Part shown: piece after piece, positions 4,133-47,662 of the stretch
Numbering within the stretch: position 1 is the first letter of the stretch
How the letters are laid out: each line of letters starts with the position of its first letter
Assembly: GCA_947259095.1 (NCBI GenBank)
Contig: CAMYLA010000023.1
Span: 1 to 49,531 of the forward strand
DNA from: an uncultured Acidimicrobiaceae bacterium
Lineage (GTDB): Bacteria; Actinomycetota; Acidimicrobiia; Acidimicrobiales; SZUA-35
DNA: 49,531 bases
Direction: 5' to 3'
The notes under the pieces: model-generated
What the model saw: the letters and a program-made list of their open reading frames with translations, nothing else
The model's database searches: none
What the model was told of the DNA's origin: nothing
Translations under genes and position numbers: made by a program

Positions 4133-5845
4133 TCAGTCATAGGTTGCCTCCACCGACCACGCCTGCTGTTCCAGCACCAGCAGATGGGCGGATCGGTCGT
4201 CCAGAACCACCTGCATACGTGCTCGGCGCCGGGACGTCAGCGGATCCCACCACCGCTGTTCGGCCGGCCACGGCCCGGCCCAGGAAACGATCCGCCGAGC
4301 CATCGGCCCCTGTCCGCCGATCGCTCGACCGGCGGACCCCCGACCGGCGGACCCCTGGCGGGCAGTTCCCTGGCCGCCGATCGCTCGATGGGGAAGGCCG
4401 TGCAGGGCGTCCGGCTCACCGCTCAACTCCCCCCGCCCGCTGACCCCGATGGGCCGACCCTGGGCGTCCATCAACGCCACCGGCAGCGGGTCGGGGTGGA
4501 CACGGGCCGGAGACGGAGGCGGGATCCGACCCGGCCAGGGTTCGTCGACCCACCGGCGGGAGCTGGCCGGCCGCTCCTCGGCCAGGTCGACCACTGCGGC
4601 GGGAACCATCCGCAGTTGCTCCCCCGGCCCCACCCCACCCCGATACTCGGGAACGGTCACCGCGTCCGGACCGAGCATGGCCTGCAACCGGGCGACCACC
4701 CGGGTGACATCATCACTGCGATCGTTTCGGGAGCCCCAGAGGCCGAGCTGGCGACCGCTGGCCGCCACCACCTCATCGGGAACGAGGGTCAACCGGGCGA
4801 TTCCCGACGACGGCCGACTGTTCTCACCCTGATGCAACCAGCCGTCGAGCTGCCAACGGGCCCGATCGGCCAGAGCCGCGGCCGACAGCGCCCCCTGATC
4901 ACGCCAGAGCCGCATCTGCCGCTCACCGGCCTCGGTCTCCGCCTCGATGGCCACCCTGGTGCAGGACAGGCCCTTGGACGCCAGATCATGGTGCAACTCA
5001 TCGGCCAGGGTCTTCGCCGCGAAGGCGCATCGTTCGATGACATCGGCCGGCGGTTCGAAAACCCAGGTGACCGCCAGGTCGGGGGCCGGCCGACGCAGAT
5101 CCGGGGGATGATCGTCCTCACCTCGGGCCAACCGGTGGGCCAACGAACCGTCGCGGCCGAACCGGCCGACGATGTCGGCCGCCGAGAGCTCGGCCAACGA
5201 CCCCAAGGTGGTCAAGCCGAGGCGGACGAAGACCTCGGTCAGCTCCGCCATGTCCAGGGTGGCGATCGGCAGGCCGGCCAGGAACGCCGGTGTGTTCCCC
5301 GGCTCGATCACCCTGATGGCCCCGGCCGCGACATCGGCGACATCGGCGGCATCGTCGGTGACGACGGTTCCGGCGGCCTCCGGTCGGTGGGCGGTGGTTG
5401 ATCGAGCGGCTCTGGCGGCCAGGCGGGCGGCGAACACCCCGTCCGCGATGCCCACACGAACCGGAACCCGTCGAGGGAGAACCGGCCGGATCATGGCCAG
5501 CGACTTCTCGGCCAACGATCGATCCCCACCGAAGAACCGGGACGGGCCCCTGGTGGGGAAACCGACCAGTCCGGGGCCGGTGACCTCGACCCCGGGGGTG
5601 ATGGCATCGAGGGCGGCGGCCACCGGTTCGAACAACCGGGCCTCCCGGTCGATGTCCCGCTCGAGCACCGCCAGCTCCGGGCACCGGCCCTGGGCATCCC
5701 GGCGACGTTGCCCGACGGCGACCCCACCGGCTCGGGCCGCAGGAGTTGTTGCCACCACCCGATTGGCCACCAGCACCGCCGCCGGCTCATCGAGGGGCAC
5801 CCCCCACGACACCACCGGCCAGTCCGGGCACCACACCACCGTCAT
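4133..5845 (-). CDS. imuB: ImuB, Y-family polymerase-like mutasome protein
   Basis: A 570-residue homologue of ImuB, the non-catalytic Y-family DNA polymerase-like scaffold of the SOS mutasome (with ImuA and DnaE2). The N-terminus has the ImuB hallmark VVWCPDWPVV, then RRRDAQGRCPELAVLERD and RLFEPVAAALDAITPGVEV, with a little-finger-like region around residues 290-400. The DxD and SDE acidic motifs of active Y-polymerases are not apparent, as expected for ImuB. The ATG at 5845 overlaps the imuA stop by 4 bases (ATGA), which implies translational coupling. The segment around residues 484-516 holds GGQG/GSAGRG repeats, a low-complexity linker. No dnaE2 is visible in the window. Confidence 0.88.
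   Translation of the reverse strand: MTVVWCPDWPVVSWGVPLDEPAAVLVANRVVATTPAARAGGVAVGQRRRDAQGRCPELAVLERDIDREARLFEPVAAALDAITPGVEVTGPGLVGFPTRGPSRFFGGDRSLAEKSLAMIRPVLPRRVPVRVGIADGVFAARLAARAARSTTAHRPEAAGTVVTDDAADVADVAAGAIRVIEPGNTPAFLAGLPIATLDMAELTEVFVRLGLTTLGSLAELSAADIVGRFGRDGSLAHRLARGEDDHPPDLRRPAPDLAVTWVFEPPADVIERCAFAAKTLADELHHDLASKGLSCTRVAIEAETEAGERQMRLWRDQGALSAAALADRARWQLDGWLHQGENSRPSSGIARLTLVPDEVVAASGRQLGLWGSRNDRSDDVTRVVARLQAMLGPDAVTVPEYRGGVGPGEQLRMVPAAVVDLAEERPASSRRWVDEPWPGRIPPPSPARVHPDPLPVALMDAQGRPIGVSGRGELSGEPDALHGLPHRAIGGQGTARQGSAGRGSAGRAIGGQGPMARRIVSWAGPWPAEQRWWDPLTSRRRARMQVVLDDRSAHLLVLEQQAWSVEATYD
4299..4395 (-). repeat. Internal low-complexity repeats in imuB
   Basis: Short direct repeats built on GCCGATCGCTCGA and GACCGGCGGACCCC occur twice each within about 100 bp. 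They encode alternating RAIGGQG and GSAGRG residues in the ImuB C-terminal linker. Confidence 0.6.
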
Positions 5846-6684
5846 ACGTAGGCCTGCCACTCCCCCACCTTTTCTCCAACCCCCGGCTCTCCAACCCCCG
5901 GCACGGGGGGAACGGCCGGAGCGGTGTCGACACGCTCGACACCACCGCCGGGGCCGGGGAGCAACACATCGACCCGCTTCGGTTTCGCCATGGACCGACG
6001 ACCGATCGCGGTGACCGACATCGAGCGGGACCGGAGGCGGCCGTGACCGACACCGATACCCGTCCACCGGCCGGGCTCGACATGGAGGGCGACATCGAGG
6101 GCCTGGGGCCATGACCGGCCACCGTCGAGGTGGAACAGCACCGAGTTCTGCTCCCGGGCCCTGGCCATCAACCGCCGGGCATCCCGGATCCCGATCGATC
6201 CCGTCGGCCCGAGACAGACCACGTCGACCACCTCTATCAACGCCGCCACCACCGTCGGCAGCTGCTGCGGGCGTGGGGTTTCCACCATGAGAACGTGATC
6301 GAGCCGAAGCCCGATCTCGTCTGCCGCCACCAGCCCCAACTCCTCCAAACCAACACAGGCCGACCACCCGTCGGCAGCCAGCGCGGTGCCGAGCAGGGCC
6401 ATGGCCAGTGACCATCCGCCGTGACCGCTCACCCCGACCGACCAGCCGCGCTGCAGGCCACCGCCGGGGAACAACGGGACCAGCGCCGACGGCACCGACA
6501 GGAGCTGCTCGTTCGCCATGGTGACCGGCGCAACACGTTGGCCGATCGCCGCCGATCGCAGCGAGCGGCCCGACCGACCCGACCGACCGGGCAACGCCGG
6601 GCCGACAATAGGAGCCGACCCGGCGGAAGCCGGATCTGTGACCGGTGCCACCACCGCATCGGCTTGATGGTCGACGAGCGCCAT
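5842..6684 (-). CDS. imuA: ImuA-like (RecA/SulA-related) SOS mutasome protein
   Basis: A 280-residue protein directly upstream of and coupled to imuB. It carries features of the RecA-like ImuA family: LFPGGGLQRGWSVGVSGHGG (a Walker-A-like region near residue 75), then GWSACVGLEELGLVAADEIGL and VVDVVCLGPTGSIGIRDARR. ImuA-type proteins help recruit ImuB and DnaE2 at lesions. The ATG at 6684 lies 6 nt after a TAGAGT hexamer that itself abuts a perfect SOS box, so this is the promoter-proximal gene of a LexA-controlled operon. Sequence divergence within this family is large, so the assignment leans on the imuB linkage and the SOS box. Confidence 0.78.
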   Translation of the reverse strand: MALVDHQADAVVAPVTDPASAGSAPIVGPALPGRSGRSGRSLRSAAIGQRVAPVTMANEQLLSVPSALVPLFPGGGLQRGWSVGVSGHGGWSLAMALLGTALAADGWSACVGLEELGLVAADEIGLRLDHVLMVETPRPQQLPTVVAALIEVVDVVCLGPTGSIGIRDARRLMARAREQNSVLFHLDGGRSWPQALDVALHVEPGRWTGIGVGHGRLRSRSMSVTAIGRRSMAKPKRVDVLLPGPGGGVERVDTAPAVPPVPGVGEPGVGEKVGEWQAYV

Positions 6685-7343: not shown

Positions 7344-8471
7344 ATGATCGTGCTGCGGCTGGTGATGAACACCGGCTCGCGGATGATGTTCACGTTCCTG
7401 CCAGAATTCTCACGGGGCACCGGGATCGATGTGGAGCGGTTGGGCCGGCTGCTGTCGCTGCGGGATCTCAGCGGCCTCACCGCCCCCTTCGTCGGCCGGA
7501 CCTCGGACCGGATCGGCACCCGCAAGGTGATGCTGGCCGGTGGGCTGCTCGGAGCGATCGGCATGTTCCTGTTCACCCTGGGCACGGCCGGTGTGGTGAT
7601 CGGGTTGGTCTGTTTCGGCCTGGGGCGGATCGGCTACCACGTCGGCATGAACGCCTGGGTCGGCCACGAGGTGGCATACGAGCGACGGGGTCGGGCCACC
7701 GGCCAGATCGAGATGACCTGGGCCGGGGCGGCCCTGATCGGTCTGCCGACCATGGGATTGCTGATCGACCGGCTCGGCTGGCGGGCCGCCCCGGCGGCCC
7801 TGATCCTGGCCACCGTGCCCCTGACCGCGGTGCTGGCGAAACGGCTGCCGGAGCCATCGGCGTTGCCGTCGGGCCACGGGGTCCGGCCCACGCTGTCGCT
7901 GTCGGGGTGGATGGCCCTGGTGTCGTTCACCCTCCTCAACGGCTCGGCCCAGCTCCTGGTGTTCAGCCATGGGATCTGGCTCGAGGAGACCTACGGGTTC
8001 GATGCGGCCCAGGTCGGGATCGCCATCGTGGCGGTCGGCGTCGCCGAACTGTTCGCCTCCTTCTCCTCGTCCCGGCTGACCGATCGGCTCGGCAAGCGCA
8101 ACTCGGTTGCCTTCGGGGCACTGGTGCTGACCATCGGCCTGGCCGGTCTCGCCGCCCTCGGCGATCCACCGTTGGCCGTCGGCCTCGGCCTGTTGGTGCT
8201 GGCCTTCCTCGGCTTCGAGTTCGGCATCGTGTCCGCCATTCCACTGGTCGCCGAACTCGACCCGAACGCCAGGGCCGAGGTCATCGGCCGATCGGTCGGG
8301 TTGTCGATCGTGGCCAGAGCGGCGGCCAGCCTGGTGGCCTCGCTGCTGATCCTCGACCAGGGTTTCCGCCTGGTCATGACCCTGGCCACCGCGCTGGCCG
8401 CCGTCACCACCGCGGTGACCATCATCGCCGTCCGGGAACCGACCCCCGACCCGGTGTCGATTGCGCCATGA
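7344..8471 (+). CDS. MFS transporter
   Basis: A 375-residue major facilitator protein with eleven to twelve hydrophobic stretches. The signature loop is GRTSDRIGTRKVMLAGGLLG (about residues 51-70). The first helix is unusually short when the ATG at 7344 is used; the frame stays open upstream (RRSLPTMIVLRLVMNTG) without an ATG or GTG, so the true start could be a rare codon further up. It is an inner-membrane transporter of unknown substrate. It follows the helical protein after 110 nt and precedes the alpha/beta hydrolase. Confidence 0.85.
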   Translation: MIVLRLVMNTGSRMMFTFLPEFSRGTGIDVERLGRLLSLRDLSGLTAPFVGRTSDRIGTRKVMLAGGLLGAIGMFLFTLGTAGVVIGLVCFGLGRIGYHVGMNAWVGHEVAYERRGRATGQIEMTWAGAALIGLPTMGLLIDRLGWRAAPAALILATVPLTAVLAKRLPEPSALPSGHGVRPTLSLSGWMALVSFTLLNGSAQLLVFSHGIWLEETYGFDAAQVGIAIVAVGVAELFASFSSSRLTDRLGKRNSVAFGALVLTIGLAGLAALGDPPLAVGLGLLVLAFLGFEFGIVSAIPLVAELDPNARAEVIGRSVGLSIVARAAASLVASLLILDQGFRLVMTLATALAAVTTAVTIIAVREPTPDPVSIAP

Positions 8472-8522
8472 CGGCCTCCCGGCGGCCGAGCACACCCGCC
8501 CGACGGCCCGGCGACGGTCCGG

Positions 8523-8528
8523 TACCAT
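8523..8528 (+). promoter_or_regulatory. Putative -10 hexamer TACCAT
   Basis: TACCAT with 7 nt to the ATG of the alpha/beta hydrolase at 8536, compatible with a leaderless transcript independent of the MFS gene. Confidence 0.5.
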
Positions 8529-8535
8529 CAGATCC

Positions 8536-9444
8536 ATGACGGTCGACTATCGACGTTTCGACGTGCCGGTTGACGGCGGTGCCCTCACCGTCGGCCAGTG
8601 GGGCCGGGGTGGCCGGCTCGTCCTGGCCTCCCACGGGATCACCGCCAACCACCTGTCGTGGCAGCGGGTGGGCGAGCTCCTGACGTCGGGGCCGGAGGGG
8701 TCCGATCACCCCATGACCCTGGTGGCGGTCGACCATCGGGGTCGGGCCGGCAGCGCCGACACCCCCGGTCCGTACGGGCTGGCCCGTCACGCCGACGATC
8801 TCATTGCGGTGCTCGACCATCTCGATGGCCCGGCGGCCACGCTGGTCGGCCACTCGATGGGTGCCTTCGTCGCCGCCCTGGCCGCGGAGCGCCATCCCGA
8901 ACGGGTCGACCGGCTGATCCTGGTCGACGGTGGACTACCCCTGCCGGTCGACCTGCCGCCGGGCGCCGACGTCGAAGCGGTCATACGGTCGGTCATCGGC
9001 CCGGCCCTCGACCGCCTCGATCAGCGATGGCCCGACGTCGAGGCCTACGTGCGATTCTTCACCGAACATCCGGCGTTCCAGCCGCCGAACGAATGGCCCG
9101 CCGCAGCCGATGCCTACGTTCGCCACGATGCCGTCGTCACAGCCGATGGCGACATCCGATCCAGCGTGATGAAGCCGGCGGTGCTCGAAGACGGTGGCGC
9201 CGCCATCGTCGATCCGGACGCATCGTCGGCCGTGCAACGCATCACAACGCCGACCACGCTGCTGTGGGCTCCCCGGGGCGTGCTCGACCAGTCACCGGGG
9301 CTCTACACCGCCGACCAGGTCGAAGCGGCGGTGGCGGCGCTGGCCCACCTCGAAGCGGAGCTGGTCGCCGACACCAACCACTACACCGTCGCCGTCGGCG
9401 AGAACGGCGCCTCGGCCGTCGCAGAGGCGATCGTCGGGTCCTGA
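8536..9444 (+). CDS. Alpha/beta-fold hydrolase
   Basis: A 302-residue alpha/beta hydrolase. The oxyanion-hole block is LVLASHGITANHLSW (about residues 31-45). The nucleophile elbow is GHSMGAFVA, with Ser in the usual GxSxG context. A late aspartate and the catalytic histidine are plausible in the C-terminal part (DTNHYTVAVGENG). The family covers esterases, lipases and C-C hydrolases, and the substrate cannot be called. The ATG at 8536 is chosen over an upstream GTG in the same frame because a TACCAT hexamer lies 7 nt before it and the fold begins there. A strong hairpin terminator follows the stop. Confidence 0.9.
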   Translation: MTVDYRRFDVPVDGGALTVGQWGRGGRLVLASHGITANHLSWQRVGELLTSGPEGSDHPMTLVAVDHRGRAGSADTPGPYGLARHADDLIAVLDHLDGPAATLVGHSMGAFVAALAAERHPERVDRLILVDGGLPLPVDLPPGADVEAVIRSVIGPALDRLDQRWPDVEAYVRFFTEHPAFQPPNEWPAAADAYVRHDAVVTADGDIRSSVMKPAVLEDGGAAIVDPDASSAVQRITTPTTLLWAPRGVLDQSPGLYTADQVEAAVAALAHLEAELVADTNHYTVAVGENGASAVAEAIVGS

Positions 9445-39312: not shown

Positions 39313-39374
39313 GACCAGCACAACGGTAGTGGCCGATGCCTCAACTGCGGCCGCAGGTCGCCGATGGGGCGAAG

Positions 39375-40268
39375 ATGGTGGCGATGTCAACACCGGTGGC
39401 CCGTCGGGTCGCCTTCGAGTATCCCCCAGACATCGAGCCGATCTGGACTCCGACCAAACCGGAATTCGCCTGCGCCGCCAACAGCGTGTCGCTCATGATG
39501 CCAACGGTCGAGCCCTATTTTGTGCGGTCGATTCGGGCCGCACTGCCCGACCTGAACGGGCCGTTGCGGCAAAGGACCGAGGCCTACCTGTTCCAGGAGG
39601 CCCAACATCATTGCCAGCACGTCCTGTTCAACCGGGCGTTGCTGGGCCGGTACGCCGGCCTGGCCCGGCTGGAGCGCCTGATCGGCGCCGCCTACCGGCA
39701 GGTCGAGCGGAGCCGTTCGGCGCAGTTCAACGTGGCCTTTGCCGCCGGGTCCGAGACGATGGCCTACTCGGCCGCCCGCTGGGCGGCCCAGCGACGCAGG
39801 GAGTTGTTCAGCGGCGCCGACGAGGTCGTCTCCACACTGTTTCTCTGGCACCTGGCCGAGGAAGTCGAGCACAAGTCGGTGGCCCACGACGTCTACCAGC
39901 AGTGCTTCGGCAGCGGCCGCCGAGCACAGCTGGTGCGGCTGGCCGCCACCGTGCTCGCCCTGGTGCTGATGGTCACCTTCGTGGTCACGGGGACCGCCAT
40001 GATGGTCACCGCCGAACGCCGACTCCATCGACCGGTGACCTGGCTCCGTCTGATCGGCTGGAGCGTGACCTTCGCCTTCGAGCTGCTTTCAAACCTGGTG
40101 ATGAGCATGCTGCCCGGCCACCATCCCGCCGACTTTGCCGATCCTTTGTGGTACGAGATCTGGCTCGAGGAGTTCGATGCCGAGAGCGGCACGGTGCCGA
40201 TCTGGCACCGCTCGCAGGCCGAACGACGACCAGAGCCACTTGAACCGACGCCGGTCGAACCGATCTGA
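39375..40268 (+). CDS. Predicted metal-dependent hydrolase (PF10118 type)
   Basis: A 297-residue protein of the predicted metal-dependent hydrolase family PF10118. The first metal motif is LFQEAQHHCQHVLFN (about residues 74-88). The second is FLWHLAEEVEHKSVAHDVY, with the E/H pattern typical of a di-metal helical bundle. A hydrophobic segment (LAATVLALVLMVTFVVTG) follows and may be membrane-associated. Substrate unknown; related proteins are common in actinobacteria and mycobacteria. The start may be ATG 39375 or ATG 39384. A GGDEF-like gene begins 6 nt after the stop. Confidence 0.85.
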   Translation: MVAMSTPVARRVAFEYPPDIEPIWTPTKPEFACAANSVSLMMPTVEPYFVRSIRAALPDLNGPLRQRTEAYLFQEAQHHCQHVLFNRALLGRYAGLARLERLIGAAYRQVERSRSAQFNVAFAAGSETMAYSAARWAAQRRRELFSGADEVVSTLFLWHLAEEVEHKSVAHDVYQQCFGSGRRAQLVRLAATVLALVLMVTFVVTGTAMMVTAERRLHRPVTWLRLIGWSVTFAFELLSNLVMSMLPGHHPADFADPLWYEIWLEEFDAESGTVPIWHRSQAERRPEPLEPTPVEPI

Positions 40269-40274
40269 GGAGGG

Positions 40275-41606
40275 ATGCAGACCAGGACCACCACCACGCC
40301 CGGGACGACGAGAACCACCGCGATGCCCGAGATGGACTGGCTGACCGGGTTGTCGTCTCGTGCGTCGTTCAGCCGCCAGGTCAACCAGGCCGACCGCGAC
40401 GGTGAACATGTTGCCATCACGCTGATCGAGATCGAGGACGTCGGCCGGATCAACCGCCGACTCGACTACGCGGCCGGCGACGAGCTGTTGCGGGTGGTCG
40501 GCCGGGCCATGGCCTTCCAGACGAGCGTGAACACGTTCGCGGCCAGGCTCGGCGGGGCCCGGTTCGCGCTGCTCAGTGTCGGCGGCCCCGCCAACCATGA
40601 GCTGGGGCCGTGGCTGGCTCCCATCGTGACCGCGGTCGAGGACGCCATCGCCGGTTGGGCCCGGGAGATCATGGACTACGAGGGTGATCGGGTGGTCCTG
40701 CCCGACATCAGCGTTGGGGCCGCCGCCGGCGACACCGGTCGGGTCTGGAGCGATGCCGCCATCGCCCTCGACCTCGCATCGGGCGAGCCGGTCGGCGGCA
40801 CCGTGGTGTTGTACGATCCCGACGATTCCCGCATCATCGCCGACGCCGAACGGCGCCGGGTTGCCGAGGGTCTGGTCGCCGCCATCGACAGCGGTGACCT
40901 CACGGTCGGCGGACGCCACATCAGCCCGTTGGGCGGCGACGGCCCGGACTGGCGATGGGTTCGCCTTGGCCCCTTGAGCCCGGTGGACGGCGATCGGGGC
41001 CGACGAAAGACCGACCCAAAACGCCGGCTGATCGACGTGACCATCGTCGAGGGAAGCGCGAAACGGCAGCTCGACGACTGGCTGATCGGCCAGGCAATTC
41101 AGGTTTTGGGCGACGCCGAGGGCCAGATGCGGTTCACCATCCCGCTCTCACACCAGACCAAGCTGGAGCCCGCCCTGGCCGACCGGTTGGGCTGCCGACT
41201 GGAACAGTGCCGGGTCCCCGCCAGCCGGCTGCTGTTCGAGGTCGGCGAAGCCGAGTTGGTGGCCGGAGGCGAGCCGGGGCGAGAGTTCTGCCGTCGACTG
41301 GACCGCCTGGGTTCGGGGTTGGTGATCGCCGGCAGCGACGGTGGCTGGGCTGCGACCTGGGCCGGTCGGGATCTCCCCATCTTCGCCGTCGCCCCCGCCC
41401 CACAGTTGATCGAACAGGCGGCCGACGGCGACCGGTCAGCGGGCAGGATCCTCGACACCCTGTCGCAGAATGCCGCCGACGACGACCGGGAGCTGATCGC
41501 GCCCCTGTGCCGGGCCGGCGATCCCATCCTGGCCGACTTCGGCATCGGCTACCGGGAGCGACCGGCCATCGTCGACGCCCGGACCGGGGATGCAATCGAC
41601 GGCTGA
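40275..41606 (+). CDS. Degenerate GGDEF-EAL domain protein
   Basis: A 443-residue protein with the layout of a c-di-GMP enzyme but altered catalytic motifs. The GGDEF fold is recognisable: DWLTGLSSRASFSRQV (about residues 21-36), INRRLDYAAGDELLRVVGRA, and then ARLGGARFALL, where GGARF (93-97) stands in place of GGDEF, so cyclase activity is unlikely. The C-terminal half follows the EAL-domain outline (RRRVAEGLVAAIDSGDLTV, then LLFEVGEAELVAGG and LDRLGSGLVIAGSDGG) but shows neither EAL nor DDFGTG. It may be a regulatory c-di-GMP sensor or a decayed enzyme. No membrane segment or input domain is visible. Confidence 0.8.
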   Translation: MQTRTTTTPGTTRTTAMPEMDWLTGLSSRASFSRQVNQADRDGEHVAITLIEIEDVGRINRRLDYAAGDELLRVVGRAMAFQTSVNTFAARLGGARFALLSVGGPANHELGPWLAPIVTAVEDAIAGWAREIMDYEGDRVVLPDISVGAAAGDTGRVWSDAAIALDLASGEPVGGTVVLYDPDDSRIIADAERRRVAEGLVAAIDSGDLTVGGRHISPLGGDGPDWRWVRLGPLSPVDGDRGRRKTDPKRRLIDVTIVEGSAKRQLDDWLIGQAIQVLGDAEGQMRFTIPLSHQTKLEPALADRLGCRLEQCRVPASRLLFEVGEAELVAGGEPGREFCRRLDRLGSGLVIAGSDGGWAATWAGRDLPIFAVAPAPQLIEQAADGDRSAGRILDTLSQNAADDDRELIAPLCRAGDPILADFGIGYRERPAIVDARTGDAIDG

Positions 41607-41814
41607 TCGTGGCCAATCCCGGATCTGCACCTTCGAGTGCACGTGGTGCGCAACCTGCATCGACGGCTCGGAGAGCCCGCTGGCCGGTGTGTGTCCGAAC
41701 TGTGGGGGCAATGTGGTACCCCGGCCGATCCGGCCCGCCGCCCTGCTGGTCGATCGGCCACCGTCGACCACTCGGGTGATCAATCCGAACGGGCCTGCGG
41801 CATCGGCCTCTTGA
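41590..41814 (+). CDS. DUF1272 zinc-ribbon-like protein, N-terminally truncated
   Basis: A 74-residue protein whose core RICTFECTWCATCIDGS and GVCPNCGGNVVPRPIRP matches the small cysteine-rich DUF1272 family. Intact members begin with another CxCC-type cysteine cluster (an LRPNCECCD-like stretch), which is missing here. The frame starts at ATG 41590 inside the GGDEF-like gene (17-bp overlap), with only ADRGQS in front of the core. I infer that the 5' end was lost. The remaining CxxC pairs could still bind one zinc. A functional gene and a remnant are both possible. Confidence 0.65.
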   Translation: MQSTADRGQSRICTFECTWCATCIDGSESPLAGVCPNCGGNVVPRPIRPAALLVDRPPSTTRVINPNGPAASAS

Positions 41815-41938
41815 GCCGTCCCAGCGGCCGAGGGGGCTCTCACGATCGTCACCGTCGCCGGCCAGCGTTCCTCGTTCGGTCCGGCCCCGGAGCTTGGAGA
41901 GGTTGGCCTCGGCCACGTCCTCGAGGCTGACATACTCG

Positions 41939-42226
41939 CTAGGTCAGCACCGTGGTGCTGGCGATCTCGTGTTGCTCGACATGAGCGTCGACGACCATGG
42001 CCGACAGATCGACGGCCGGACCGTCCTGACGGAACCGCTCCACCGCCTCCGCGGTCTCCCACTGCTCGAAGATGTTGATCATGCCGCTCTCCAGCGGGTC
42101 GGGCACGAGGTAGAAACCGAGGCAGGCGTCGGTCGCCCTGGCGGCCTCGATCACCGCGCCACAGGCGGCGAGGTAGCCAGGTCTATCCTGCGGAGCAACT
42201 CGCAACCATCCCGAAACAATCACCAT
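41939..42226 (-). CDS. Antibiotic biosynthesis monooxygenase (ABM) domain protein
   Basis: A 95-residue single-domain ABM protein (YgiN-like). The segments IVSGWLRVAPQDRPGYLAAC, CLGFYLVPDPLESGMINIFE and QWETAEAVERF show the ferredoxin-like fold with the FEQW/W pattern. Members act as cofactor-free monooxygenases on quinols or polyketides, or as small dimeric binding proteins. The ATG at 42226 is 6 nt after TAGTCT (42233-42238). It is divergent from the glycosyltransferase. Confidence 0.9.
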   Translation of the reverse strand: MVIVSGWLRVAPQDRPGYLAACGAVIEAARATDACLGFYLVPDPLESGMINIFEQWETAEAVERFRQDGPAVDLSAMVVDAHVEQHEIASTTVLT

Positions 42227-42439
42227 CGCCGAAGACTACTCCGATTCGCCACCCTGATCCGTCCCGACGGGTCCAACGTCACCGCTTCGATGCTGTTCAA
42301 TCCCGGTTCCCCGCCGTGGATCAACCGCCAGGTGGTGACGGCCGTGGTACTGGCGGTCGCCCCGTAGCGACCGGGCACACCGAGGATCTCGGCCGGGCTT
42401 CGTATCGGCTCACCGCATCTCGGCCGACGTTAGGCTCTG
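42227..42439. promoter_or_regulatory. Divergent intergenic region with two putative -10 hexamers and a short open frame
   Basis: On the minus strand TAGTCT (42233-42238) is 6 nt from the ABM gene start. On the plus strand TAGGCT (42431-42436) is 6 nt from the ATG at 42443. Between them a plus-strand frame ending at TAG 42367 encodes NPGSPPWINRQVVTAVVLA with codon use like real genes. I see no convincing start or ribosome site, so it may be a gene remnant. Confidence 0.5.
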
Positions 42440-42442
42440 ATG

Positions 42443-43171
42443 ATGACCGAAGCCGACGACACCGTGGTGTTCATCCCCGCCTGGAACGAGGAAGGGAACC
42501 TCCCGGCGGTGCTGGACGAGCTGGCCCTGGAACTCCCGGGGATCGATGTGCTGGTCATCGATGACGGGTCGACCGACGCCACCGCCGACATCGCCCTGGA
42601 CCGTGGGGCGACGGTCGTGTCGTTCGAGGAAAATCGTGGGCTCCGGGCCGGGATCGCCGCCGGTTACGAAGAGGCCCACGCCCGTGGCTACAACTACTGC
42701 GGTCGGGTCGACGCCGATGGCCAACATCCGGTCGCCGAGTTGCGCCGGCTGCTCGCACTGGTTCGCTCCGACTCCTGCGACGTGGCGATCGGCTCCCGTT
42801 TCGCCGTCGACGAGGCGTATGGCGACGACCGCTACCGCCCCAGTCGGTCGCGCCGCTTCGGGATCGGGCTGCTCCAGGGGGCGATGCGGGTCAGGCTCGG
42901 CCGCCGGTTCCACGATCCGACATCGGGCATGTTCGCCGTCAACGCCGATGCCATGGTCGTCCTGGCGGCACCGTACGTCAGCGGGGCGCCGGAGGTGGAA
43001 GCGCTGCTGCGCCTGAAGGAGGCCGGGCTCCGGGTCGAGGAGGTTGCGGTCGACATGCGAGCCCGGACCGGTGGGGAGTCCAAGCTCCAGGGCATGAAGG
43101 CAGTGAAGCTGGTGACCACGGTGATCGGCACGCTGCTGTTCTTCGAGGTCCTGCGCCGTCGACGATCATGA
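42443..43171 (+). CDS. Glycosyltransferase family 2
   Basis: A 242-residue GT2 enzyme of the dolichol/polyprenyl-phosphate sugar synthase type. VVFIPAWNEEGNLPAVLDEL opens the GT-A fold. VLVIDDGSTDATADIA binds the nucleotide, and the metal-binding motif is GRVDADGQHPV (DxD). The acceptor region is GSRFAVDEAYGDD. No C-terminal membrane helices typical of long GT2s are present. The second of two adjacent ATGs (42443) is chosen because TAGGCT then sits at the usual 6-nt spacing; the first is 42440. It overlaps the next gene by 4 bases (ATGA). Confidence 0.9.
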   Translation: MTEADDTVVFIPAWNEEGNLPAVLDELALELPGIDVLVIDDGSTDATADIALDRGATVVSFEENRGLRAGIAAGYEEAHARGYNYCGRVDADGQHPVAELRRLLALVRSDSCDVAIGSRFAVDEAYGDDRYRPSRSRRFGIGLLQGAMRVRLGRRFHDPTSGMFAVNADAMVVLAAPYVSGAPEVEALLRLKEAGLRVEEVAVDMRARTGGESKLQGMKAVKLVTTVIGTLLFFEVLRRRRS

Positions 43172-43668
43172 CCGACCGCCACAGCCGGGTGATCGTGGTC
43201 CTGGGCTATTCCGACGGCGGCCGAGGGGTGCTTCACCCGATCTGCGCCGAAAGGCTGGCCCACGCGGCCAAGATCTCGACCGAGCACGACGTCGTCGTGC
43301 TGTCCGGCTGGGCTCGGGTGCCGGGCACCAGGCCCGAAGCGGAGCTCATGGCCGAGGCCTGGGCCGGCCGGTCCGGCGAACTCGTTGTCGACCCCGATGC
43401 CCGGAGCACGGTGGGCAACGCCACCAACGCAATCGACGACGTGTGGCGCAGCGGCGCCGACGAAGTCGTCGTGGTCACCTCACGTTGGCACGCACCACGA
43501 GCTGCGGCCGCCTTCCGGTGGCGGCTGCGCAGCACCGGCGCAACGGTCGTCACCGCCGCCCCGGCGGGGGGTTGTGTCGGCGACTGGCTCCGGGAGCTGC
43601 CCCGGTGGCTCATGCTGCCACTGCAGCTCGCCACCGATCGGCCCGGTCCGGCCCGACGGCCGGGCTGA
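43168..43668 (+). CDS. YdcF-like protein (DUF218)
   Basis: A 166-residue DUF218/YdcF-SanA-type protein. The opening VIVVLGYSDGGRGVL and the segments VVLSGWARVPGTRPEAELMA, STVGNATNAID and VVVVTSRWHAPRAAAAFRW keep the family's glycine-rich and Rossmann-like layout. Family members include SanA/ElyC envelope proteins and AdoMet-binding YdcF. No membrane helix is present here, so it is the short soluble form. It is translated from the same mRNA as the glycosyltransferase (ATGA overlap), which suggests a shared role in glycan or envelope work. Confidence 0.85.
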   Translation: MTDRHSRVIVVLGYSDGGRGVLHPICAERLAHAAKISTEHDVVVLSGWARVPGTRPEAELMAEAWAGRSGELVVDPDARSTVGNATNAIDDVWRSGADEVVVVTSRWHAPRAAAAFRWRLRSTGATVVTAAPAGGCVGDWLRELPRWLMLPLQLATDRPGPARRPG

Positions 43669-43805
43669 CCCCTCGGACCGTCGACGAGGCCGAAGTTGAG
43701 GCGGACCGCAGAGACCGTCGGTGAACATTTCGGAACAGTGGTTTGATCGACGTCCGGAAAGGGAATCTACAGCCAACGACCAGTCAAGACCAAGGGACTC
43801 CCATC

Positions 43806-44603
43806 GTGCAGACCGTAGAAGACGCCCCGGCCGAGGCCGGCCCCCCCGAGCAACCATTGAGCCCGAAACGGCTGTCCAACCTCCGGCTGTGGAACTTCGG
43901 GCTGACCGCCCTCCACGGTGTCCAAGCCCTGCTCATCCTCTTCCTGGCCAGCGACTTCGCCATCACGGTCACCTCCACGTTTCCCGAGGGCCCGCCCGGA
44001 ACCCGTCGCCCCGTCGCCGAGGGCCTGTTCGACGTGCGCATCGGGGCCGCCATCGCCGTCTTCCTGGGCCTGGCCGCCCTCGATCACCTCATCACCGCAA
44101 CGATCGGCCGCTCGACGTACGAAGCCGACCTCAACCGGGGTATCAATCGTTTCCGGTGGGTGGAGTACTCGTTCAGCGCCACGCTGATGGTGCTGCTGAT
44201 CGGCTCCTACAGCGGGATCACCGACATCACCTCGATCATCGGCATCGCCGGCGCCAACGTCGCCATGATCCTGTTCGGTTGGCTGCAGGAGCGGATGAAC
44301 CCGCCGGGCAGGACCACCACCACGATGATGCCCTTCTGGTTCGGAACGATCGCCGGCCTGGCCCCGTGGTTGGCCATCGCCACCAACATCATCGGGTCGG
44401 AGACGGTGCCCGGTTTCGTCTACGGCATCATCGTCGCCCAGGCCATCTTCTTCTTCAGCTTCGGTCTCAACCAGTGGCTGCAGTACCGCCGGATCGGCCG
44501 TTGGTCCGATTACGCCTTTGGCGAGAAGACCTACCTGGTCCTCAGCCTTGGGGCGAAGTCGGTGTTGGCCTGGCAGATCTTCGGAGGCTCGCTGGGGAAC
44601 TGA
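43806..44603 (+). CDS. Heliorhodopsin
   Basis: A 265-residue seven-helix protein of the heliorhodopsin family. The retinal Schiff-base lysine is Lys251 in VLSLGAKSVLAWQIFGG (codon 44556-44558). The counter-ion glutamate is Glu120 in RFRWVEYSFSATLM (codon 44163-44165). ANVAMILFGWLQERMNP, NQWLQYRRIGRWSDYAFGEK and the closing SLGN are all family-like. Heliorhodopsins have inverted topology (N-terminus inside) and a long photocycle, with proposed signalling or transport roles. The GTG at 43806 gives the usual family length; a TTG at 43743 would add 21 residues. A purine-rich AAGGGA precedes the GTG. No retinal-synthesis gene is in the window. Confidence 0.95.
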   Translation: MQTVEDAPAEAGPPEQPLSPKRLSNLRLWNFGLTALHGVQALLILFLASDFAITVTSTFPEGPPGTRRPVAEGLFDVRIGAAIAVFLGLAALDHLITATIGRSTYEADLNRGINRFRWVEYSFSATLMVLLIGSYSGITDITSIIGIAGANVAMILFGWLQERMNPPGRTTTTMMPFWFGTIAGLAPWLAIATNIIGSETVPGFVYGIIVAQAIFFFSFGLNQWLQYRRIGRWSDYAFGEKTYLVLSLGAKSVLAWQIFGGSLGN

Positions 44604-44636
44604 GCGTCGGCAGTGATCGGCTGGACCGGCGCCCGA

Positions 44637-45200
44637 TCAACCGCAGCGATCCCGCAGTCCCAGGAGTTGGCGCCGGACCATCACCCCGTCCCCGAACCCC
44701 AGCGCCGCCGATGCCGGTCGGCCGAGCGGGCCGACGATGGAGAACCTGGCCCGTGAAACGAGCCGGGTCGTCGTCGGGCCCGCACCGGTCACCGGATCGA
44801 GACGGTAGGCGAGCGTGAAGTCCATTCGGTGCCCAAGAAATCGCCGGTCCAGCAGAGCCAGCACCAACGCCCGATCGGGTTCGAGCAAGGCAACCGAAAA
44901 CGAGACCATCGGCCCGCCGGGCACCGCCTCACCCTCGGCCTGTACCTGCCAGCGGGGATCGATGTGGCGTGCACTGGATCGTCCCAGATTGTCGAACAGA
45001 TCGTAGCTGTACCAGCCGGCCTTGCCGAAGCCCATCTGGGTCAGCCAACCGAACACCTCGCTCGGTTCCGCACCGAGGTCGATGCTGCGGGTGGCCGACA
45101 CCGACGGCGTGCCGATCAGGTCGTCGCCGGGCATGCCGGCTGCGGTCTCCGCTGCGGTGGCGCCCCACGTCTCCCACAACACGATTCGGTCTCCAATCAT
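44637..45200 (-). CDS. SRPBCC-family protein
   Basis: A 187-residue protein of the SRPBCC (START-like) ligand-binding superfamily. The N-terminus WETWGATAAETAAGMPGDD followed by ATRSIDLGAEPSEVFGWLTQ is typical of an actinobacterial subfamily. GKAGWYSYDLFDNLGR and VALLEPDRALVLALLDRR also fit. The ligand is unknown. It is convergent with the heliorhodopsin gene, with 33 nt between the stops. No TANNNT -10 is seen at leaderless spacing, so its start signals differ from most neighbours. An AraC-effector-like protein and a CIA30 lipoprotein follow beyond it. Confidence 0.82.
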   Translation of the reverse strand: MIGDRIVLWETWGATAAETAAGMPGDDLIGTPSVSATRSIDLGAEPSEVFGWLTQMGFGKAGWYSYDLFDNLGRSSARHIDPRWQVQAEGEAVPGGPMVSFSVALLEPDRALVLALLDRRFLGHRMDFTLAYRLDPVTGAGPTTTRLVSRARFSIVGPLGRPASAALGFGDGVMVRRQLLGLRDRCG

Positions 45201-45257
45201 CGGCCGCAGCGTTCGATGACGGTGGCCGCTGCGTGACAGCGCGGACTACGAAGCCTG

Positions 45258-45275
45258 CCCCCGCGCGCTCGGGGG
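45258..45275. other. GC-rich inverted repeat in a divergent spacer
   Basis: CCCCCG (45258-45263) and CGGGGG (45270-45275) form a perfect 6-bp stem with loop CGCGCT. It lies in the 242-bp region between the divergent SRPBCC and CIA30 genes; role unknown. Confidence 0.4.
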
Positions 45276-45442
45276 TTCACGACGGAGCGTACCCGGTGCC
45301 AACCCGACGGTGGCCCACCGGTTGGTTGGGGGTGCGTCGGTCGGGTGCCTCTGCCGACCGGCCCCGGAGCGCTCACGACCGAACCGCCGAAGAAGTCGCT
45401 CCGATTGGCCGCTCGACCGAGCGGCTCGACGAAGATGGAGCG

Positions 45443-46189
45443 ATGTCTAGGCCAGGCGCACTGTCGCTTTCCATCCTCGTGTTGGCTTGTTCGACGCTCC
45501 TCGCCTGCTCGGCAGGTGGCGATGCGGTGGATGCGATGCCATCAGCCGGGTCGGAGCCGACCGCCTCCAGCACCGCACCGATTCCCGCCACCGCGCCGGA
45601 GCCGACGGTGACCACCACCACTCCCGCCACCACGACCCCACCGGAGGAGACCGACATGGAGACCCAGGACCAGATTGACCAGGCGGCATGCCGCCGTCTC
45701 GCCGACTTCGAATCGGACGATGCCAACCGCCGCTGGCTGGTGGTCAACGACGATGTGATGGGCGGTCAGTCCCTGGGGAGACTGTCGTTCGATGGCGGAA
45801 CCATGGTGTTCGAGGGGGAGATCAACACCGACGGAGGCGGCTTCTCTTCACTGCGCCTGCCGCTCGAACCGGCGACGCTGGTCGACCACGACCGCATCGT
45901 GTTTCGGGCCAGACCCGACGAGCGGGCCTACATGGTGACCTTCGACGACGATCTGCCCTCCCGCGATCGCCGGGTTTCGCACCGGGCGCCGATCGAGTTC
46001 GAGGCCGGCGGGACCTGGCAGACCGTTTCGGTTTCCTTCGACGACCTGTTTCCCGCGGTCTTCGGCCGCCCCATCGACGACCTCCCGTTTCGCAAGGACC
46101 TTGCCACCCGCATGGGACTGATGATCAGCGACGGCGTCGACGGTCCATTCCGTCTCGAAATCGACTGGATCGACCTCTGTCCTCGGTGA
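45443..46189 (+). CDS. Lipoprotein with CIA30 (NADH:ubiquinone complex I intermediate-associated) domain
   Basis: A 248-residue lipoprotein. The N-terminal hydrophobic segment LSILVLACSTLLACSAGG ends in a lipobox LLAC (Cys22). A Thr/Pro-rich linker (PTVTTTTPATTTPPEET) leads to a CIA30/NDUFAF1-like galactose-binding-fold domain. Its hallmark is RRWLVVNDDVMGGQSLGRLS (about residues 95-114), followed by FEGEINTDGGGFSSLRLPL. Bacterial CIA30 proteins have no established role in complex I assembly. The ATG at 45443 is preceded by GATGGAG. Confidence 0.85.
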   Translation: MSRPGALSLSILVLACSTLLACSAGGDAVDAMPSAGSEPTASSTAPIPATAPEPTVTTTTPATTTPPEETDMETQDQIDQAACRRLADFESDDANRRWLVVNDDVMGGQSLGRLSFDGGTMVFEGEINTDGGGFSSLRLPLEPATLVDHDRIVFRARPDERAYMVTFDDDLPSRDRRVSHRAPIEFEAGGTWQTVSVSFDDLFPAVFGRPIDDLPFRKDLATRMGLMISDGVDGPFRLEIDWIDLCPR

Positions 46190-46222
46190 CCGGAGCACAT
46201 GGCGGCGACGGCCGGGCCCGAG

Positions 46223-46687
46223 TCAGGTGATCGGCCAGACGATCTCAGTCCGCCAGGTGGCCGGGTCGGGCTCGATCCGGGGATCGGACAGATAGCTCTC
46301 CCACATCCCGTCGGCGGGGTGGAAACCCTGTTCGGCCATCCAGGCCTGAAGCCCGATGTAGGTTGTCGCCATCGTCTCGTAGGGTCCGACGTGCAGCGCT
46401 CTCACCGCTCGGCCCCCGGGCAGCATCAGCGGGTGGACGTCTCCGACGGTCTCGATGGGTGCCGACACCGGAAACCCCGCTTCCACTGCGACGATCTCGG
46501 TCGGCATCTCGGGGTAGAAGCCGAAGGGCGGGCCGGTGATCTCGACGCCGGAGGCCGCCGCTGCGGCTGCGGCGGCGACGAAGGCCCGTTGGAAGAACGC
46601 CGGCATGTCGGCGATGGCAACGTCACCCCGGACCGCAATCGCCTGCTGCGGGTCCAACTCGACAACTTCGGCCGACAGAGCAGTCAT
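46223..46687 (-). CDS. GyrI-like/AraC-effector-domain small-molecule-binding protein
   Basis: A 154-residue single-domain protein of the GyrI-like (SbmC/BacR effector-binding) family. AVRGDVAIADMPAFFQRAF begins the fold. The segment GPPFGFYPEMPTEIVAVEAG and VRALHVGPYETMATTYIGLQ carry the ligand-pocket signatures, including the conserved Glu in HVGPYE. No DNA-binding domain is attached, so it is a stand-alone effector binder. The ATG at 46687 is 6 nt from TACGGT (46694-46699), which decides it over longer forms. Confidence 0.88.
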   Translation of the reverse strand: MTALSAEVVELDPQQAIAVRGDVAIADMPAFFQRAFVAAAAAAAASGVEITGPPFGFYPEMPTEIVAVEAGFPVSAPIETVGDVHPLMLPGGRAVRALHVGPYETMATTYIGLQAWMAEQGFHPADGMWESYLSDPRIEPDPATWRTEIVWPIT

Positions 46688-46693
46688 GGCGTG

Positions 46694-46699
46694 ACCGTA
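46694..46699 (-). promoter_or_regulatory. Putative -10 hexamer TACGGT
   Basis: TACGGT on the minus strand with 6 nt to the ATG at 46687. Confidence 0.5.
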
Positions 46700-46859
46700 T
46701 GCGCCGCATGACCAACCGACCAGGGACGGACGTCCCCACCACCCGACCGCCGGCCGCCATACGCCGCACACAACCGCCTCGGCGGGGTGCCTGGTGCCGT
46801 GGCTCGGAGGTGACGTTGGTCTCTACCCGAACACCGCAGGTGAAGGAAAGACTCACCAT

Positions 46860-47162
46860 GTGCTCCGTCCCACGACTCCTCCCGGGCGATGGTCGATCCT
46901 GGCACTGGCGGTCTTTGCTCTCCTGTTGGCCACCTTCGCCCTGACGGTCGCCGCCGGCCAGCGAGGTGGTGAGGAGTTCTTCGACAACCTCTGGTTGACG
47001 GTGCCGTTCCTGGGGGCGTACCTTGCCGCAGTCGCTGCGTTCAGCCTCGCCGCAACAGCCATGATCGGATAGGGCGAGCGAAGCGTCACCGTTGTGGCCG
47101 CCACCGTCGTCGGGCTTCTCGTGACCGCCTTCGGGGTGCTCGAGGTCCTGTTCCCCCACTAG
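46860..47162 (+). pseudogene. Small membrane protein gene interrupted by an in-frame TAG
   Basis: From GTG 46860 the frame encodes two hydrophobic helices (WSILALAVFALLLATFAL and FLGAYLAAVAAFSLAATA) and then meets TAG at 47070-47072. In the same frame it continues for 29 codons as GERSVTVVAATVVGLLVTAF then GVLEVLFPH to a second TAG. The combined 100-residue product looks like a common three-helix small membrane protein in which RRGERS lies between helices 2 and 3. The interruption is therefore probably a nonsense mutation in a formerly intact gene. A GAAGGAA ribosome site lies before 46860. Confidence 0.65.
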
Positions 47163-47254
47163 CGTCATCGCCGGCCGGCTCGGCCATCGGACGGCACCTC
47201 CCTGTGAGTCTCCGCCGCCAAACGGGATTGTCCCTCAGAGGGTGCTGCAACCCC

Positions 47255-47662
47255 TCAGCCGCTGCCACCGGTCGGATCCTGCGAGCCCCACTCATCGGAG
47301 CCATCGCCGACGGCACTCACGATCTCGAGGCGCAGCGGTTCAAGCGCCTCGAGCACTTCGTCGATCCTTGCGGCCTTGGTTCCGATTTCGGCGAGGGTCT
47401 CGGCCAGGTACTCGAGGAACAGGTCGAAGTCAGCATCCGTGATCTGGAGATGAGCATGAGCAGCCCTCATGTCACGGCCTTCGTAGGCATCGGGACCGCC
47501 GAGCGCCGCCGTCAGGAACATCCTCTGACGGGTCTTGAGCTGCGCCACATCGGCGTGCTCGAAGAACACACCGAGAGCCGGATCGGACGTGAGCTTGGTG
47601 TAGAACCTCTCGACTGCTTCAGCAACCGAGGTGTCGCCGCCGATCGTCTCGTAGATTGACAT
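47255..47662 (-). CDS. glbN: Group I truncated haemoglobin
   Basis: A 135-residue two-over-two globin. SIYETIGGDTSVAEAVERFY opens the fold, with Phe-Tyr at positions B9-B10 in ERFYTKL. The proximal histidine F8 is in DMRAAHAHLQITDADFDLFL. Such proteins bind O2 or NO and often protect against nitric oxide. The last 20 residues (VGDGSDEWGSQDPTGGSG) extend past the fold as a Gly-rich tail. A GGGGGAG ribosome site precedes the ATG by 5 nt. It is intact although it lies between decayed genes. Confidence 0.93.
   Translation of the reverse strand: MSIYETIGGDTSVAEAVERFYTKLTSDPALGVFFEHADVAQLKTRQRMFLTAALGGPDAYEGRDMRAAHAHLQITDADFDLFLEYLAETLAEIGTKAARIDEVLEALEPLRLEIVSAVGDGSDEWGSQDPTGGSG

Follow-up and report, generated by a model that had tools for sequence, protein, structure and literature searches.

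A Heliorhodopsin from an Uncultured Acidimicrobiaceae Bacterium: Key Residues, Neighbouring Genes and Retinal Supply

Introduction

The function of heliorhodopsins is still debated, and gene context is one of the main clues to it. These type-3 rhodopsins are defined as a family by an inverted topology with a cytoplasmic N terminus, retinal binding, a slow photocycle and the absence of pumping. One of them, HeR1, is encoded in the stretch of DNA analysed here (the window; 49,531 nt from the draft genome of an uncultured Acidimicrobiaceae bacterium). The initial annotation had placed its gene after a coupled GT2-YdcF pair and opposite a convergent SRPBCC gene, and had suggested from these neighbours a link to lipid glycosylation or ligand binding. 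The locus raises two questions: what, if anything, the adjacent genes say about HeR1, and where its retinal would come from. The features concerned are listed below in window coordinates; other loci carry our own numbers (L).

42440..43171, + strand: GT2 glycosyltransferase (PF00535, E 1e-21); flanking gene, no conserved partner
43168..43668, + strand: DUF218/YdcF-like protein (PF02698, E 5.3e-18); flanking gene, no conserved partner
43669..43805, + strand: spacer upstream of HeR1, 137 nt
43806..44603, + strand: HeR1 heliorhodopsin, GTG start, 265 aa; Lys251 (Schiff base), Glu120 (counter-ion), Ser247 of SxxxK, His37, His94
44637..45200, − strand: convergent SRPBCC-superfamily protein, 187 aa; possible lineage-level partner

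Results

HeR1 Has the Residues and Predicted Fold of a Heliorhodopsin

The Pfam profile PF18761 matches HeR1 from end to end (profile positions 1-242 of 242, E 7.9e-97), and the NCBIfam HeR equivalog NF038020 gives 265 bits, the cut-off being 100. A phmmer alignment with the 48C12 heliorhodopsin (6su3; E 1.7e-64), in which positions were counted manually, pairs Lys251 with Lys241, Ser247 with Ser237, Glu120 with Glu107 and His37 with His23. Among the 173 distinct heliorhodopsin sequences from the fetched loci, Glu120 is present in all; Lys251 and Ser247 are each found in 172, with a gap in the remaining sequence. His37 and His94 do not vary in a set of 22 sequences. The earlier placing of Lys251 and Glu120 in family positions is upheld by this alignment and conservation.

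An AlphaFold2 model of HeR1 built from 22 sequences (mean pLDDT 77.8) was compared with the PDB. The top match is 6su3 (TM 0.84, 45% identity), and the ten best are all heliorhodopsins. The last modelled helix spans residues 236-263, in agreement with the closing helix of heliorhodopsin type described before. Beta strands in the first loop belong to the heliorhodopsin fold, and those modelled at 52-57 and 72-78 fit this feature. The closest database protein among the matches listed, P0003, is 90% identical over the entire query, which makes the assigned start codon plausible. An SxxxK motif with the Schiff-base lysine in helix 7 is a criterion for heliorhodopsins (PMC8612252), and HeR1 has this lysine together with the whole-profile match, the helix C counter-ion glutamate and the fold. 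Judged by sequence and modelled structure, HeR1 is an ordinary, well-conserved and complete heliorhodopsin, a new member of a known family.

The Usual First and Last Enzymes of Retinal Synthesis Are Missing from the Draft Genome

The draft genome (6.39 Mb, 229 contigs, 96.5% complete, 7.1% contaminated) may lack a gene only because the assembly is incomplete, and part of its contigs may derive from other organisms. It was searched for Blh, RPE65, CrtYc/d and phytoene synthase; CrtY (PF05834), CrtI and CrtE were outside the search. None of the four gave a match on the window's contig in these genome-wide searches, and the statement that the window holds no carotenoid cleavage or crt gene stands for this set. 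No Blh match was found anywhere in the draft by the genome-wide search proposed alongside that statement; the profile used does detect Blh elsewhere in the class, in 5 of 395 genomes. Neither was there a match in the draft to phytoene synthase (SQS_PSY, detected in 7 of 14 control genomes) or to a CrtYc/d-type lycopene cyclase (3 of 14). Lack of both phytoene synthase and Blh, taken here as one mark of a retinal auxotroph, is what this 96.5%-complete draft presents, and the two are likely absent from the genome of the species.

Since the usual first and last enzymes are absent from the draft, retinal is likely scavenged. On balance, HeR1 is a canonical heliorhodopsin that probably serves as a stand-alone membrane light sensor, likely with retinal scavenged from other microbes. 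In the main alternative, retinal would be made in the cell by an RPE65-family oxygenase from imported carotenoids or apocarotenals, with no need for the ready-made compound. Five RPE65-family matches, three of them full length, are indeed present in the draft. The best PDB matches of the three are to carotenoid 9,10-dioxygenase or 9-cis-epoxycarotenoid dioxygenase, with apocarotenoid-15,15'-oxygenase (2biw) further down the list at E 4e-45 to 2e-41; a relative (L272) has an RPE65 gene directly upstream of a proton-pump-type rhodopsin, but its enzyme is only 33-38% identical to the copies in this genome.

The class sample speaks against this route. It comprises 395 genomes, many of them incomplete drafts; 267 combine a completeness of 90% or more with contamination no higher than 5%. 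A heliorhodopsin match occurs in 173 (172 above the family cut-off), SQS_PSY (phytoene synthase or a related enzyme) in 100, Blh in 5 and RPE65 in 120. The occurrence of RPE65 is not associated with that of heliorhodopsin (58 of 173 genomes with heliorhodopsin vs 62 of 222 without; odds ratio 1.3, p 0.27), and 104 of the 173 have no RPE65, phytoene synthase or Blh. RPE65 was therefore rejected as a general source of retinal, and synthesis by this enzyme in the present genome is possible but unlikely. Phytoene synthase is rarer in the presence of heliorhodopsin (27/173 vs 73/222 of the other genomes); with Blh in 4 of the 173, neither enzyme is found in 146. A published case of caution points in the opposite direction: Aurantimicrobium minutum has neither blh nor diox1, yet retinal is present in it, produced through an unknown pathway (PMC7734400).

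Three Further Rhodopsin Genes Occur in the Genome

Beyond HeR1, and absent from the initial annotation, the genome contains a second heliorhodopsin and two type-1 rhodopsins. The second heliorhodopsin (contig C15, L005:8371-9246, +) is 52% identical to HeR1 and is followed after 61 nt, on the same strand, by a Polyketide_cyc2 SRPBCC gene (L005:9308-9739, +). Upstream of it lies a gene for a 1547-aa protein in which HD-GYP-like sequence and cadherin-like repeats were read by eye.

The type-1 rhodopsin on contig C25 (L006:7446-8318, −) has D-T-E residues, presumably those of a proton pump, and that on contig C14 (L007:7560-8402, −) has N-D-Q residues, which we take to mark a sodium pump. The C14 contig may be foreign to the bin, because its L007 part scores low in the window's codon model. 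Divergent from the L006 rhodopsin runs the frame of an HTH-B12 regulator (8217-8978, +), which the 5' end of the rhodopsin gene overlaps; the profile match does not begin until position 18, and this 5' end could be truncated, wrongly assembled or absent. What stands out in this genome is that it has four rhodopsin genes but no complete known pathway to retinal. Across the class, a type-1 rhodopsin match was obtained in 78 of 395 genomes (G055 and G235 were dropped as below-cut-off heliorhodopsin cross-hits), more commonly with heliorhodopsin (65/173) than in the other genomes (11/222), counts uncorrected for ancestry.

The Window around HeR1

Coordinates and domain matches confirm the layout first described. 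The GT2 and DUF218/YdcF genes overlap by 4 nt, the 137-nt spacer separates them from HeR1, and 33 nt lie between the HeR1 stop codon and the convergent SRPBCC gene. A GGDEF-EAL protein is encoded further upstream (40275-41606, +), with both domain matches partial. Beyond the SRPBCC gene, a CIA30-domain protein (PF08547) with a lipoprotein-like start ends at 46189 (+); its longest frame, from 44969, overlaps the SRPBCC gene, and that start is likely wrong.

The spacer contains a copy of a GGAAC-N14-19-CGT dyad. As a shared promoter motif the dyad gave a negative result, occurring in 6 of 162 heliorhodopsin upstream regions vs 41 of 810 random stretches. An ECF-type promoter common to heliorhodopsin genes was rejected on this ground, and the copy in the HeR1 spacer is likely due to chance.

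Instead of serving as a sensor for transcription, HeR1 might modulate one particular enzyme or transporter in a light-gated manner. Such a role has been published for other heliorhodopsins, with glutamine synthetase as the enzyme (PMC9529153), and an ABC transporter has also been reported. No gene of this kind was found among the ten neighbour proteins scanned, from 39336 to 47662, and we consider the role quite unlikely for HeR1.

Genes beside Other Heliorhodopsins

For comparison with other loci, 96 of the 173 heliorhodopsin-positive class genomes supplied 99 usable loci, the streamlined family f34 being represented by only 2 of its 36 genomes. L005 and the 80 best-matching of 202 named loci brought the set to 180, in which duplicates remain; 167 distinct loci, the window included, were scanned with iterated profiles. 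Genes in the loci were called by a purpose-made codon-usage script, not a standard gene finder. Forty regions of ~14.7 kb from 29 class genomes served as controls (0.59 Mb vs 2.19 Mb of heliorhodopsin loci).

The most recurrent co-directional adjacent gene in the 167 loci encodes an NAD(P)-binding (SDR) protein fused to DUF2867. At 10 loci it lies within 1.5 kb of the heliorhodopsin, the gap ranging from -4 to 32 nt; at any distance it was found in 14 of the 167 loci vs 0 of 40 control regions. The 10 near loci represent three heliorhodopsin clusters at 70% identity and two at 60%. A scan of one SDR-DUF2867 member gave an additional match to the SRPBCC family PF10604, below the cut-off. The single SDR-DUF2867 gene of the present genome is on a different contig, and the 16 kb examined there contain no rhodopsin.

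Other families recur less often. Within 1.5 kb of a heliorhodopsin, B12-binding proteins occur at 4 of 167 loci (at one more they are 1.5-4 kb away), small SRPBCC proteins of the L005 kind at 4 (9 anywhere), DUF2071 at 3 and DUF427 at 2; each is absent from the 40 controls. The DUF2867 and B12 families were picked from these same loci, so their closeness is a lead and not an independent test. Photolyase genes are near heliorhodopsin at 3/167 loci vs 1/40 controls and ECF sigma genes at 6/167 vs 2/40. Neither is denser overall (photolyase 1.4/Mb in heliorhodopsin loci vs 1.7 in controls; ECF sigma 4.1/Mb vs 3.4, taken as not denser), and for both only the closeness to heliorhodopsin is suggestive. 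A second SDR family, which we call DHRS12-like, was tried as a partner and rejected: it is found at 10/167 loci and 0/40 controls, but shows no closeness to heliorhodopsin, as only 3 copies lie within 1.5 kb and 6 lie beyond 4 kb.

Individual loci gather several of these families. At L107 (3770-12208) a heliorhodopsin occurs with genes for an ECF sigma factor, an anti-sigma factor, a photolyase, an SDR-DUF2867 protein and a DUF427 protein, a stretch that looks like a light-response cassette. At L128 (7783-12313), DUF2071, ECF-sigma-like, B12-binding, SRPBCC and SDR-DUF2867 genes stand in a row upstream of the heliorhodopsin. At L272 the RPE65-family oxygenase gene (1534-2919, +) precedes the proton-pump-type rhodopsin (~3031-3678, +), and an SDR-DUF2867 gene lies downstream on the other strand (4698-6056, −); the oxygenase and rhodopsin are a candidate retinal-making pair without Blh.

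By analogy, these neighbour families fit a light-response reading, in agreement with the role in light and oxidative stress proposed for heliorhodopsins (PMC8612252). In Pseudomonas, the LitR-dependent light-inducible genes include a photolyase, and the pmlR1 region holds a photolyase and a short-chain dehydrogenase (PMC9758184). Our literature search found no report joining heliorhodopsin with SRPBCC, DUF2867, short-chain dehydrogenase or B12-binding proteins, nor, among the matches listed, with photolyase, LitR, CarH, ECF sigma or adenosylcobalamin. The SDR-DUF2867 link may already be listed among the possible operon partners in Table S9 of PMC8612252.

B12-Binding CarH/LitR-Like Regulators

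The two readable heliorhodopsin loci nearest to HeR1 are L151 (JABDLU010000157, 85% identical) and L152 (JAHEJN010000220, 84%). In L152 an HTH-B12 regulator gene lies 51 nt downstream of the heliorhodopsin; no B12 regulator was found within five genes of the L151 heliorhodopsin. The L152 regulator is 54% identical to the protein encoded divergently from the D-T-E rhodopsin of the present genome (L006). In 22 type-1 loci (L006, L007 and 20 fetched from the 78 matching genomes), an HTH-B12 regulator was found at 5, always divergent from a D-T-E rhodopsin. Four of the five genomes with such pairs are Blh-positive; the window's genome is not.

Ten B12 proteins from heliorhodopsin or type-1 loci were compared. 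All have the W-x9-EH motif, which helped to pick the frame for four of them. A DxHxx[GP] pattern was detected in 8, an equivalent GxxH being recognised by eye in the other two. The HTH pattern was found in 7, and the three without it are at heliorhodopsin loci. These residues correspond to W131, E141, H142 and H177 of CarH (PMC11796333). The L006 and L152 regulators have the HTH and B12-binding domains and the W, E-H and H ligands by which the CarH/LitR type is recognised.

Heliorhodopsins of the Acidimicrobiia could be imagined as retinal-scavenging sensors within a light-response regulon under B12 photoreceptors of the CarH/LitR type, with recurrent SRPBCC-type partners (SDR-DUF2867 fusions and small SRPBCC proteins, the one in the window among them) capturing or converting the retinoid. 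We regard this as a speculative and doubtful proposal; if true, retinal- and cobalamin-based light sensing would be coupled in one circuit.

The Convergent SRPBCC Protein as a Possible Partner

The convergent protein alone matches PF10604 below the cut-off (E 0.015), as against 30 of the 48 aligned members of its family. Its model is helix-grip-like (pLDDT 89.9) and weakly resembles COXG and PYR/PYL structures (TM 0.33-0.56 in 50 listed matches); the family profile has no match at E 0.01 among PDB sequences. The family matches and the model sustain the SRPBCC identity given at first, and the superfamily appears to be a fair label for the protein at 44637-45200.

HeR1 and this protein could work together as a pair, with retinal or another apolar ligand bound or delivered by the SRPBCC protein. 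Contig sizes were compared among the listed homologues on contigs >2 kb (81 heliorhodopsin, 79 SRPBCC, 60 YdcF), and in two relatives homologues of both are on equally sized contigs. The entries of 1467815 nt (P0006 for heliorhodopsin and P0181 for SRPBCC, from NCBI and ENA) are surely one contig. Those of 7971 nt (P0056 and P0158, both NCBI) are very likely one contig too, which would put the two genes within 8 kb. As a gauge of chance among short contigs, four heliorhodopsin-SRPBCC pairs differ by 1-3 nt, all <7 kb. The SRPBCC gene 61 nt behind the second heliorhodopsin also favours a pair, and genes of SRPBCC type (DUF2867, SRPBCC2 and the window type) lie <=1.5 kb from heliorhodopsin at 15/167 loci, seed loci included, and 0/40 controls. 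Against this, the other SRPBCC families were chosen because they recur near heliorhodopsins, convergent genes are not co-transcribed, and the fold matches are weak. The window-type family itself occurs in only 2 of 167 loci, window included; the other is L115, 1.5-4 kb from the heliorhodopsin by iterated profile, and it is also the only one of the 180 loci matched by tblastn (E 1e-4; ~2.2 kb). A functional pair seems very doubtful on these grounds. The ligand-binding idea raised from the neighbours may survive, only through this protein.

GT2 and YdcF Are Bystanders

In the same tblastn searches (E 1e-4), the window's GT2 and YdcF proteins matched none of the 180 heliorhodopsin loci, nor did its CIA30, ABM, metal-dependent hydrolase, GyrI-like and globin proteins. 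The GGDEF-EAL protein matched one place, entered twice (L056, L153). A broad iterated profile placed a GT2 gene within 1.5 kb of one other heliorhodopsin in the 167 loci (L102). None of the window's neighbour genes is present at L151 or L152; the upstream gene at L151 is presumably DNA-glycosylase-like, as named from its N-terminus.

This turnover is general. Sharing was scored as at least one gene family in common within five genes on each side, in 124 loci with >=3 genes per side. A family is shared by all 5 locus pairs above 95% heliorhodopsin identity and by 18 of 22 at 85-95%, as against 20 of 122 at 75-85%, 67 of 859 at 65-75% and 435 of 6618 at lower identity. Heliorhodopsin neighbourhoods scramble quickly as identity falls.

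The gene order GT2-ydcF-heliorhodopsin is not kept across the relatives compared, and GT2-YdcF-SRPBCC as a conserved unit was rejected for GT2 and YdcF. These two genes are bystanders, and the local context of HeR1 is largely uninformative. From the initial interpretation, the heliorhodopsin identity and the absence of retinal genes stand, whereas the lipid-glycosylation link through GT2 and YdcF is not borne out. That GT2, YdcF and heliorhodopsin form one light-controlled unit for lipid or cell-wall glycosylation can be set aside as highly improbable: the overlapping pair lies upstream of HeR1 on the same strand, and L102 offers one broad-profile parallel, but the 137-nt spacer intervenes, no locus in the tblastn set has either gene, and the sole equal contig size for YdcF and heliorhodopsin (2283 nt, among 120 YdcF homologues listed) comes from different sources.

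Discussion

A stand-alone sensor with scavenged retinal remains our preferred reading of HeR1. Retinal from outside would enter the membrane and bind Lys251, where light would isomerise it. The signalling state would then act on a partner whose gene lies at another place in the genome, not on GT2 or YdcF, and the output may be part of a response to light or photo-oxidative stress. This output is suggested by relatives, because some heliorhodopsins of the class adjoin SDR-DUF2867, CarH/LitR-like, photolyase or ECF sigma genes; none of the SDR-DUF2867, B12 regulator, photolyase and ECF sigma genes was found beside HeR1 itself.

The locus illustrates how the context of a single window can mislead, here through GT2 and YdcF, when gene context is a main clue to a debated function. 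Context over 167 loci points instead to the SDR-DUF2867 and B12 W-x9-EH proteins, which are directly testable. The 146 of 173 heliorhodopsin genomes without phytoene synthase and Blh likewise make the source of retinal a testable question.

Among known systems, the 48C12 heliorhodopsin (6su3, 6uh3) resembles HeR1 in fold, length and key residues (45% identity, TM 0.84), although more than half of the residues differ. The heliorhodopsins of L151 (85%) and L152 (84%) have highly similar cores but other neighbour genes. As in the CarH/LitR systems (PMC11796333, PMC9758184), HTH and B12 domains with W-x9-EH and histidines occur beside some rhodopsins; in contrast to loci bearing those regulators, no such gene adjoins HeR1, and the regulators described here are putative photoreceptors. 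Heliorhodopsins without retinal genes are already known in Ca. Actinomarinales, which combine type-1 rhodopsin and heliorhodopsin with retinal synthesis genes reported missing (PMC7771536), and, with regard to blh, in Luna-1 actinobacteria, most of which lack this gene despite heliorhodopsin (PMC12422013); they are common in the present class sample. Both groups resemble this genome in having the two kinds of rhodopsin, and in Luna-1 blh is likewise rare. Of the Luna-1 genomes, 82-83% keep crtB and crtY (PMC12422013), whereas the genome studied here, with no phytoene synthase match, carries four rhodopsin genes.
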